Assembly: GCA_945957395.1 (NCBI GenBank)
Contig: CAMFKE010000007.1
Span: forward strand, 1-64,000
Direction: 5' to 3'
From: an uncultured Opitutia bacterium
GTDB taxonomy: Bacteria > Verrucomicrobiota > Verrucomicrobiia > Opitutales > UBA953
Length of the DNA stretch: 64,000 bases
The translations under genes were made by a program, and so were the position numbers. Under the pieces are notes generated by a model. That model was given only the letters and a program-made list of their open reading frames with translations. It had not been told where the DNA came from and did not search any database. Below are positions 53,212 through 56,435 of the stretch, piece by piece (positions within the stretch are counted from its first letter, which is position 1; the number at the start of each line of letters is the position of its first letter).

Positions 53212-54303
53212 ATGAACTGGAACCACCTCACCCGACTCAAGCTGGAGGGATACAAGTCCATCAAGGAGTGCGACTTGGAGCTGAAGGACCTCAATGTGCT
53301 CATCGGCCCCAACGGCGCGGGAAAATCGAACTTTATCGGGCTCTTCAAACTCATCCAGCAGTTGCTGGAAGGGAACCTGCAGCGCCACATCTCGAAAAAC
53401 GGCGGCCCCGACTCTTTCCTCCACTTCGGGCGCAAAAAAACCCAGCAGCTTTCGGCGGAGCTCTACTTCGGGAACAACGGCTACAAATTCGCCCTCGAGC
53501 CGACGGCGGACAACCGGATGATGTTCGCCAAAGAAAAATTCTACTGGAATGGCCTGCGCACAGGCGACTGGACCATCGGCTCCGGATACTTCGAATCTCA
53601 AGTCGAATCGAAAAAAGAGCGTACGCAGATTTACGACTATACGGTCCCCACGATGCAGAAGTGGCGTGTGTACCACTTCCACGACACAGGCGAAAACGCT
53701 TCCGTGAAAGGCGTCGCAAAACTCAACGACAACGCCTACCTGCGCCACGACGCGGGCAATCTAGCGGCCTTCCTTTACCTGCTGAAAGCCAAACACCCCG
53801 ATCACTACGACCGTATCATCAAAACGGTCCGTTTGGTGGCGCCGTATTTCGGCGACTTCAGCCTGCGCCCGGATCCGCTGAACCCGGATCAAATCGAATT
53901 GGAGTGGTTCGAGCCGGGCGAAGACATGCCGTTCAAGGCCCACCACCTCTCGGACGGCACACTGCGCTTCATCTGCCTGGCCACCGTGCTGCTCCAGCCG
54001 GCGGAACTCCAACCGGAAACAATCGTGGTGGATGAGCCGGAACTCGGCCTGCATCCGTTTGCCATCCGCACTCTGGCAGGCCTTTTCCGCACGATTTCCA
54101 AAGCCAAACAAATCATCGTCTCCACCCAAAGCGTCAGTCTGCTCAACGAGTTTGCCCCCGAGGATATCGTGGTTTGCGACCGGAAGAATGGAGCCAGCCA
54201 GCTCCGCCGGCTGAAACCGGAGGAACTCACGCCGTGGCTCGAGGAATACACCCTCGGTCAGCTCTGGGAGAAAAACATTCTTGGCGGAAGGCCTGCGAAA
54301 TGA
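53212..54303 (+). CDS. AAA ATPase, AAA_21/OLD-like (putative defence ATPase)
   Basis: 363 aa SMC/ABC-type ATPase. Walker A GPNGAGKS at residues 32-39 after KLEGYKSIKECDLELKDLN; signature-like LSDGTLRFICLATVLL; Walker B TIVVDEPELGLHPFAI; QIIVSTQSVSLLNEF is the switch region. This is the type found in OLD, RloA, PtuA and AriA defence systems. It is read with the next two genes: its stop and the TOPRIM-like start overlap (ATGA at 54300). Composition is lower in GC than the surrounding metabolic genes. Start ATG 53212 follows CTGATCCC with no Shine-Dalgarno sequence. Confidence 0.88.
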   Translation: MNWNHLTRLKLEGYKSIKECDLELKDLNVLIGPNGAGKSNFIGLFKLIQQLLEGNLQRHISKNGGPDSFLHFGRKKTQQLSAELYFGNNGYKFALEPTADNRMMFAKEKFYWNGLRTGDWTIGSGYFESQVESKKERTQIYDYTVPTMQKWRVYHFHDTGENASVKGVAKLNDNAYLRHDAGNLAAFLYLLKAKHPDHYDRIIKTVRLVAPYFGDFSLRPDPLNPDQIELEWFEPGEDMPFKAHHLSDGTLRFICLATVLLQPAELQPETIVVDEPELGLHPFAIRTLAGLFRTISKAKQIIVSTQSVSLLNEFAPEDIVVCDRKNGASQLRRLKPEELTPWLEEYTLGQLWEKNILGGRPAK

Positions 54304-54971
54304 GCCGCATCCACATCATCTGCGAAGGACAGACCGAAGAGTCCTTTGTGAACGAATTGCTGGCCCCTCACCTCGCCGCCTTCGGCGTCTTTCCCTCCGC
54401 ATCCCTCATCGGCACCCCTGGCCACAAAGGAGGGAATGTCAGCACCCCCAGAATGGTCGGCGACATTGTCCGACGCCTTAGGGGTGACCCGACCGCACAC
54501 TGCACCACCTTCTTTGATTTCTACGGACTCCACCCAGATTTTATCGGCAAAGCGGCGGCCCTGACGAAACTGGATATCCGGACCAAGGCGGCGACCATCG
54601 AAACGGCGCTTGCCGCGGAGGTCATCGCCAAAGTCGGGCCCGACGCGATGCCTCGCTTCATCCCGTACATCCAGATGTACGAATTCGAAGCCCTGCTGTT
54701 CAGCGTCCCGTCAAAGATGGCGAAAGGTTTATATACGCCCCATTTGGAAAAGAAATTCGCCGATATCCGCACCGCGTTCGCGACGCCTGAAGAGATTAAC
54801 AACAGTCGCGCAACGGCGCCCAGCAAGCGCATTATCAAAGAACTTCCCGCATATGACAAAGTGACTGCTGGCTCGCTCGCCGCCCTCGCAGTCGGACTCG
54901 ACGACATGAGACGCGAATGCCACCGATTCGACGAGTGGGTGACCCGCTTGGAAAAACTCTCAGGCGCATAA
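54300..54971 (+). CDS. DUF4276 (TOPRIM-like) protein
   Basis: 223 aa. HIICEGQTEESFVNELLAPHL carries the conserved Glu of a TOPRIM-like centre, and TTFFDFYGLHPDF provides Asp residues; the sequence is the DUF4276 family, often encoded after AAA ATPases. TOPRIM-type proteins in OLD, RloB and AriB cut nucleic acid when the ATPase senses a phage. C-terminal helices (KRIIKELPAYDKVTAGSLAA) are conserved in the family. ATGA overlap upstream; only 4 bases to the NucS-like gene. Confidence 0.85.
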   Translation: MSRIHIICEGQTEESFVNELLAPHLAAFGVFPSASLIGTPGHKGGNVSTPRMVGDIVRRLRGDPTAHCTTFFDFYGLHPDFIGKAAALTKLDIRTKAATIETALAAEVIAKVGPDAMPRFIPYIQMYEFEALLFSVPSKMAKGLYTPHLEKKFADIRTAFATPEEINNSRATAPSKRIIKELPAYDKVTAGSLAALAVGLDDMRRECHRFDEWVTRLEKLSGA

Positions 54972-54975
54972 CCCC

Positions 54976-56061
54976 ATGCCCATCCGCACCACCCTTTGGA
55001 AAGTCGGCACGAAGCCGGAAGCGCTGCCCGTCTCGACCCTGAAAAAGGAGGCCGAGCTGGAAGCCATGATTGTGGCCTGCCCGGCGCTGGTGTCCGACGA
55101 GTGGCTGATCATCGGCCAACAGGAAATCACACCGCACGCCGGACGCATCGACCTGCTCGCCCTAGCGCCTGACGGCTCCCGCGTGCTGCTTGAGTTGAAG
55201 CGTGACAAGACCCCGCGCGAAGTGGTGGCGCAGACGCTCGACTACGGTGCGTGGGTCGACGGTCTCGAAACCGACGACCTCGTGGCCATCTACGGGCGCT
55301 TCCGCCCTGGCCGCGACCTCGCGGCGGATTTCTTGGAAAAGTTTGGCGTCGAGTACGACGAGGAGGCGCAGCACGCCGGGCACCAACTCGTCATCGTGGC
55401 AAGCGAGCTGGACGACAGTTCGGAGCGCATCGTGAACTACCTGAACGCGCGCGGCATCGCCATCAATGTGCTGTGTTTTCAAGTGTTCGAACACGCCGGG
55501 CAGCAACTGCTCAGCCGAACCTGGCTCATCGACCCCGTGGCCGCCGCGCAAGTGCCCACCACCGGCACCCGCTCCGCCGGCGTGGCGAACGACCCGTGGA
55601 ACGGCGAAAGCTATGTCTCCTTCGGCGAAGGCCACACCCGCAGTTGGGAAGACGCCCGGCAGCACGGCTTCATCTCCGCCGGCGGCGGCGCTTGGTACAC
55701 GAACACCCTGCGCCTGCTCGCGCCCGGAGACCGCGTGTGGGTGAATATCCCGAAAACCGGTTATGTGGGCGTCGGTCGCGTGACGGGCGTCGCTCAACCG
55801 GCCACGGAGTTCACGGTGGGCGGCAAGCCCGTGCTGGAAGTGGCGCGCCGCGCCACCTACCATGTTGAGAACCTGAACGACCCGGAACGCTGCGAGTACT
55901 TCGTGCCCGTACAATGGCTGGAAACCGTGCCCGTCGCCCAAGCGCGCAGGGAACTCGGATTCTTCGGCAACCAGAACAGCGCCTGCAAACCGGTGGCCCC
56001 CAAGTGGCGAACCACCGTGGATCGCCTACAAAAGCTCTTCCCTCAATTCAACAAGGCCTGA
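54976..56061 (+). CDS. NucS-like PD-(D/E)XK nuclease with PUA/EVE-like C-terminus
   Basis: 361 aa. Residues 30-140 contain the PD-(D/E)XK core: Asp in HAGRIDLLALAPDG, ELK in RVLLELKRDKTPREVV, and a downstream Gln/Tyr (AQTLDYGAWV), as in NucS/DUF91 nucleases. From about 205, SYVSFGEGHTRSWEDARQHG, FISAGGGAWYTNTLRLLAPG and VNIPKTGYVGVGRVTG resemble a PUA/EVE-type reader that binds modified bases. So it may cut DNA or RNA carrying a modified base. Directly downstream of the AAA/DUF4276 pair and probably in the same transcript. Confidence 0.8.
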   Translation: MPIRTTLWKVGTKPEALPVSTLKKEAELEAMIVACPALVSDEWLIIGQQEITPHAGRIDLLALAPDGSRVLLELKRDKTPREVVAQTLDYGAWVDGLETDDLVAIYGRFRPGRDLAADFLEKFGVEYDEEAQHAGHQLVIVASELDDSSERIVNYLNARGIAINVLCFQVFEHAGQQLLSRTWLIDPVAAAQVPTTGTRSAGVANDPWNGESYVSFGEGHTRSWEDARQHGFISAGGGAWYTNTLRLLAPGDRVWVNIPKTGYVGVGRVTGVAQPATEFTVGGKPVLEVARRATYHVENLNDPERCEYFVPVQWLETVPVAQARRELGFFGNQNSACKPVAPKWRTTVDRLQKLFPQFNKA

Positions 56062-56435
56062 GTTCAAACCTAGCGCCCAGGGCCGCCCTCACCGGCTGGC
56101 CTTGGTGTTTCTCGGATATTCCGGGTGACAGCCTGACTCGGCGTCGCGGGGAATTTGTCGGCGTGAAGCGGCGCCCGATTTCTCCCGCCAAGCTCGCCAT
56201 GCGATTTCGAGCGACAGAACGCCCCCGTTCCAAACCGATGTGCGTCGGAGTGGAATGGATACTCCGACTCCCGGGTGATGCTTGGCGGGCTTTGCGGGAG
56301 AAACCGACAACCCAGGCGCACCCTCACTCCAAGCGCCCTTTGCGTTCTTTTGTGGCCAATTCCCAGGATTCGGGGCCGACCAGGCAGACTTATCATTTCG
56401 CGTAACTCCCTGCTTGCGGCGGCGTTAAAGCGGCC
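56062..56435. other. Gene-free region with large imperfect palindrome
   Basis: 374 bases without a gene. A left arm from 56179 (TTTCTCCCGCCAAGC) is imperfectly complementary to a right arm ending at 56303 (GCTTGGCGGGCTTTGCGGGA...), enclosing a perfect hairpin GTCGGAGT/ACTCCGAC (56244-56268). It may be a relic of a small mobile element at the edge of the three-gene operon. Confidence 0.5.

Follow-up and report, generated by a model that had tools for sequence, protein, structure and literature searches.

Three co-directional genes on the forward strand of a contig from an uncultured Opitutia bacterium (GenBank CAMFKE010000007.1, positions 1 to 64,000, hereafter the window) span positions 53212-56061, as read from the open reading frames (ORFs) of the window, and encode an ATPase (P1), a DUF4276 protein (P2) and a nuclease-like protein (P3). 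This three-gene block consists of two catalogued defence candidates, HEC-01 (P1 and P2) and PDC-S11 (P3), brought next to one another by chance or by selection. An initial annotation, made from the sequence alone, had taken the genes for a single candidate defence system whose combination of proteins matches no named system. Neither part of that proposal is supported: PADLOC lists P1 and P2 as HEC-01 and P3 as PDC-S11, two separate catalogue entries, and every linkage test speaks against one new three-gene system. The account that we consider probable is that the locus carries two independently acquired or mobile defence modules placed end to end and probably co-transcribed, of which HEC-01 would act in a PARIS-like manner and P3 in a type IV-like manner.

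One system or two

The linkage tests covered sampled genomes with flanks of 1.5-10 kb, a scope in which a rare second instance of the trio is possible. The best 80 of the 389 P3 relatives found in 84,980 species genomes were analysed together with nine loci on viral contigs, with flanks that reach 7 kb at most and are often cut short by a contig end; neither P1 nor P2 lies near any of them (0/80 genome loci, 0/9 viral loci). The AAA-DUF4276 pair is likewise missing from the surroundings of the full-length or near full-length P3 relatives of the same phylum (0/6 loci), and P3 thus stands without the pair in 95/95 related loci. Among 388 same-phylum (Verrucomicrobiota-like) genomes HEC-01B occurs in 35 and a near full-length PDC-S11 in seven, and the two meet only in the genome of the window; among 369 genomes from a second class, six have a strong HEC-01B match and four a strong PDC-S11 match, again with no overlap. 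The AAA-DUF4276 pair itself is a stable unit. Almost every HEC-01B locus has a P1-type ATPase gene immediately before the DUF4276 gene, and across all fetched loci, some of which repeat the same place, an AAA ATPase is present in 61 of the 64 DUF4276-bearing stretches; those that also contain P3 are all copies of this window, and at every other locus examined the HEC-01 pair occurs without it. Recurrent adjacency of all three genes in unrelated genomes was not found in the sampled loci. In none of the other genomes checked do P1, P2 and P3 occur together, and they therefore do not make up a new three-gene system.

Base composition was compared with that of the 39 other window genes of at least 150 amino acids, whose mean guanine plus cytosine (GC) content is 0.685 (standard deviation 0.032). 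P1 (0.571) and P2 (0.579) lie below every one of them and P3 (0.649) below all but three, in agreement with the low GC content initially noted for the block. At third codon positions (GC3; background mean 0.877, standard deviation 0.037) P1 (0.766) and P2 (0.705) are again below all 39 genes, whereas P3 (0.82) is about 1.5 standard deviations under the mean and not below all of them. Since GC3 differs between P1/P2 and P3, composition agrees with the separateness of the two modules.

The tight layout of the block is borne out by the ORF coordinates: P1 and P2 overlap by ATGA (54300-54303), and the stop codon of P2 (TAA, 54969-54971) is followed by CCCC and the start codon (ATG) of P3 at 54976, a gap of four bases. 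This spacing on a single strand is what speaks for one cooperative system, in which P3 would sense and cut phage DNA that bears modifications, while damage or escape would be answered by the ATPase-Toprim pair, as does an Ideonella plasmid on which the pair is accompanied by an Mrr gene, so that a pair plus a restriction nuclease recurs loosely. Cooperation of this kind is nevertheless very unlikely given the 95 other loci in which P3 relatives lack the pair, the pair without P3 in all other loci, the differing base composition and the separate catalogue entries. Of the observations that the initial annotation had regarded as counting against its proposal, the separation of P3 from the pair is what was found, while a missing link to defence genes was not; as set out below, restriction, BREX and type III restriction-modification (RM) neighbours elsewhere support a defence role for both halves.

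The HEC-01 pair

P1 matches the PADLOC profile HEC-01A over nearly its full length (E = 3.2e-155) and Pfam AAA_21 (1.2e-30), and in a profile comparison the OLD nuclease 6p74 comes nearest to it (1.3e-12), as expected from its first description as an AAA_21/OLD-like ATPase. It carries a Walker A motif (GPNGAGKSN), a signature-like motif (LSDGTLRF) and a Walker B motif (IVVDEPELGLH), and the residues of Walker A, LSDG and DEPELGLHP are invariant in ten relatives. The AriA profile of PADLOC also recognises P1 (8.1e-30), although HEC-01A is by far the better match.

P2 is a DUF4276 protein (Pfam, 3.1e-49), as already annotated, and matches HEC-01B nearly full length (9.5e-76). It carries the CEGQTEE and FFDFYG motifs that had been read from its sequence, and among about 46 distinct relatives the acidic residues D73, E128 and E130 are invariant and E9 is kept in 45/46. 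NCBIfam has no model for P2, no mention of DUF4276 was found in the open-access library searched, and a comparison of the P2 sequence with solved structures gave no convincing match. No AriB profile is matched either; in PADLOC, at E-values up to 1, P2 hits HEC-01B profiles only. The structure model of P2 is weak, with a predicted local distance difference test (pLDDT) score of 76; loci from the genome searches did not enter the structure predictions, and its alignment consists of three sequences. The top match of this model in a structural aligner is the OLD Toprim domain 6nk8 (Z 8.6 over 179 residues), and three Xanthomonas OLD Toprim entries (Z 7.8-7.9) are among the next four. AriB was not among the matches listed for this weak model, and a likeness to it may still exist. 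The ranking supports, short of proof, the reading of P2 as a Toprim protein, and P2 is probably a Toprim-type nuclease.

HEC stands for Hma-embedded candidate (PMC12988326; PMC10855318); no literature was found that names HEC-01 together with PADLOC. The catalogued system has the same architecture as P1-P2, an ATPase gene followed by an adjacent DUF4276 gene. Its embedding in an Hma or restriction operon is absent here, with no RM or Hma genes found adjoining the pair in the window, but this embedding was the context of discovery and not a required part. In this locus HEC-01 is instead followed by PDC-S11, which lies outside the catalogue entry. The OLD/PARIS-like logic initially proposed for P1 and P2 is upheld as the closest analogue. 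PARIS (AriA and AriB) shares with P1-P2 the plan of an ABC/AAA ATPase with a separate, in P2 probably Toprim-type, effector; it differs in that this effector is AriB, whereas P2 is a DUF4276 protein without an AriB profile match. OLD and the Gabija protein GajA have an ATPase of the same family as P1, and P2 shows a weak fold likeness to OLD Toprim domains, but P1 and P2 are two separate proteins and have no GajB-type helicase.

Elsewhere, HEC-01 pairs are often met in restriction loci, of several kinds. One lies between PglX and PglZ, i.e. within a BREX locus (L069, 6622-15079), another adjoins a DrmD-like helicase, MTase_III and REase_III (L074), and a third an SNF2 helicase and REase_III (L072). 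On plasmids its neighbours include genes for DNA methyltransferases, helicases or an Mrr protein, and on the Ideonella plasmid (L200, 4898-7629) a type IV-like Mrr gene follows it after about 45 bases, an arrangement that loosely resembles that of the window. A further pair resides on a 10.9-kb mobilizable Acinetobacter plasmid together with tet(39) and a VapBC pair (L198). Two IMG/VR viral contigs also encode the pair (L165 and L166), which can therefore travel with phage-like elements; a single-protein scan of viral contigs for DUF4276 gave no relatives. According to a survey published in 2026, OLD-ABC pairs linked to a Toprim protein, PARIS included, serve BREX and Hma-type (DUF499) systems as backup effectors (PMC12839542).

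PDC-S11, a NucS-type nuclease with an EVE/PUA-fold tail

PDC-S11 is catalogued as a single-gene phage defence candidate, and P3 matches it at full length (1.1e-142; amino acids 1-356 on profile positions 1-355 of 358). In the literature PDC-S11 was found in survey mentions only, with no mechanism. Pfam is nearly silent on P3: NucS_C falls just short of the cut-off (2.2e-4), although it matches 51/51 of the P3-family proteins scanned, and the tail matches no Pfam family. The AlphaFold model is good (pLDDT 88), with less certainty about the relative order of the two domains (predicted template modelling score 0.55), and divides the protein into a nuclease domain (about amino acids 22-180), a low-confidence linker (192-205) and an EVE/PUA fold (about 207-358). 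Residues 24-179 match the NucS/EndoMS structure 2vld (Z 12.7, root-mean-square deviation 2.0 over 108 residues), and D59, E73 and K75, which form a D...ExK triad, are invariant in 51 relatives. Residues 209-356 match the EVE protein PH1033 (Z 11.1 over 117 residues), followed by MJECL36 (Z 10.1) and by VcaM4I, an EVE-HNH restriction enzyme (Z 9.9); YTH domains score about 9. By sequence and predicted structure P3 is thus a NucS-type PD-(D/E)XK nuclease domain with an EVE/PUA-fold tail; the initial annotation had anticipated both halves, and the folding and tail comparison that it suggested bear them out.

The fusion of a modified-base-reader fold to a nuclease is known from VcaM4I and from predicted EVE-PD(D/E)XK type IV enzymes (PMC7897488, PMC7641849), from which P3 is set apart by the NucS type of its N-terminal nuclease domain, with the EVE fold at the C-terminus. 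The EVE domain of VcaM4I flips 5-methylcytosine or 5-hydroxymethylcytosine into a pocket (PMC7897488), and Bell et al. see putative type IV enzymes in the EVE-PD(D/E)XK proteins and also connect type I RM with proteins of the EVE type (PMC7641849). With the mismatch endonuclease NucS/EndoMS, P3 has the nuclease fold and the D-ExK residues in common, but the N-terminal DNA-binding domain of that enzyme is missing and an EVE-fold tail is present instead. Kinship of this sort is what a non-defence account would build on, in which P3 is a NucS-related repair enzyme and the pair a toxin-antitoxin-like or cell-physiology module rather than an anti-phage one. NucS/EndoMS is indeed nearest to the nuclease domain, and in an archaeon a role in the cell cycle is reported for ATPases of the OLD family (PMC12796447); a patchy distribution, carriage by plasmids and viruses and the restriction neighbours make such an account highly improbable.

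Type I RM genes lie near P3 relatives in 50 of 80 loci, a rate that is descriptive only, because the three type I RM profiles were built from the neighbours of P3 itself; the same profiles matched 0/15 HEC-01 loci. A Pfam check of representative neighbours returned Methylase_S, HsdM and HsdR domains, and in 25 of 75 loci HsdS lies directly upstream of the P3 relative on the same strand, often with a gap of 8-60 bases. In the window PDC-S11 follows HEC-01 and not a type I RM operon. The same genome has strong matches to N6_Mtase (HsdM-type) in two genes (G000:C4:328914 and G000:C7:200696), neither beside P3, and because of them a type I RM system may exist elsewhere in the genome. P3 could in general be an HsdS accessory of type I RM, and the copy studied here a leftover, cut off from its operon and nearly or wholly without function, as the relatives directly behind HsdS and the N6_Mtase genes (on C4, and on C7 near 200.7 kb) might suggest. 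We regard this as unlikely: P3 is full-length and keeps all catalytic-type residues, its two-domain plan is like that of the self-sufficient VcaM4I, and about 30 of 80 relatives lack type I genes in their neighbourhood. Taken together, HEC-01 and PDC-S11 relatives tend to sit inside or beside restriction operons.

Boundaries of the locus

The flanks are as first described, with thrS upstream of P1 (TIGR00418, 1.2e-196) and an inverted repeat in the spacer downstream of P3 (Table 1). The arms of the repeat (56176-56202 and 56280-56306) are 85% complementary, and the element has a fold z-score of -3.1. It is present in a single copy, the rest of the genome giving no more than one partial match of 30 bases, and the idea of a multi-copy element was rejected for that reason. 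Membership of the repeat in HEC-01 or in PDC-S11 is supported in neither case. A tRNA-borne island was dropped as a reading, there being no transfer RNA (tRNA) gene within the window. No defence island surrounds the block, the 56 neighbouring genes giving generic helicase/ATPase-type matches only.

Table 1. Features of the HEC-01/PDC-S11 locus (positions in the window)
Feature	Position	Strand	Evidence
P1 (HEC-01A), OLD-like ABC/AAA_21 ATPase, 363 amino acids	53212-54303	+	PADLOC, Pfam, OLD profile, motifs
P2 (HEC-01B), DUF4276, probable Toprim-type effector, 223 amino acids	54300-54971	+	Pfam, PADLOC, conserved acidic residues
P3 (PDC-S11), NucS/EndoMS-like PD-(D/E)XK nuclease with EVE/PUA-fold domain, 361 amino acids	54976-56061	+	PADLOC, fold
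Imperfect 27-nucleotide inverted repeat, spacer after P3	56176-56306		inverted-repeat and fold analysis

A model of two backup layers

In the two-module account all three genes would be transcribed from upstream of P1. By analogy with PARIS, P1 as an OLD-family ABC ATPase may hold the Toprim-type P2 and unleash it on infection, a release that is possibly triggered by inhibition of the host's own restriction; in PARIS, the effector AriB cuts tRNA (PMC12409363). P3 may act as a stand-alone modification-dependent (type IV-like) nuclease, the EVE-fold tail of which would capture a modified base of incoming DNA by flipping it out, leaving the NucS-type domain to cut that DNA. Both modules would then serve as backup layers against phages that evade or block ordinary restriction.

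Several observations weigh against this account. A Foldseek search of the Protein Data Bank with the P2 model returned nothing below 1e-3 and, the model itself being weak, membership of P2 in the Toprim family is not established. When compared with the P3 tail, YTH and ASCH structures score on a level with some EVE structures, so that the tail may read either DNA or RNA and more than one modified base comes into question. About 30 of the 80 P3 loci have no type I RM genes nearby, several HEC-01 pairs are isolated or stand beside housekeeping genes, and the 4-base gap between P2 and P3 would suit a translationally coupled three-gene operon too.

The analysis removes a false lead to a new three-gene system, and both HEC-01 and PDC-S11 gain a concrete, testable mechanism. 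A role for HEC-01 in guarding restriction, in the manner of PARIS, is in keeping with its embedding in BREX and type III RM loci. PDC-S11 offers the more useful lead: from its EVE-fold tail and its recurrent place behind HsdS, a type IV-like enzyme that backs up type I restriction is predicted. On a more tentative note, PDC-S11 might be a modification-dependent nuclease that is recurrently inserted directly behind HsdS as an in-built reserve for cases in which the modified bases of a phage defeat type I restriction, and, combined with a PARIS-like module, the locus might answer both modified DNA and anti-restriction proteins.
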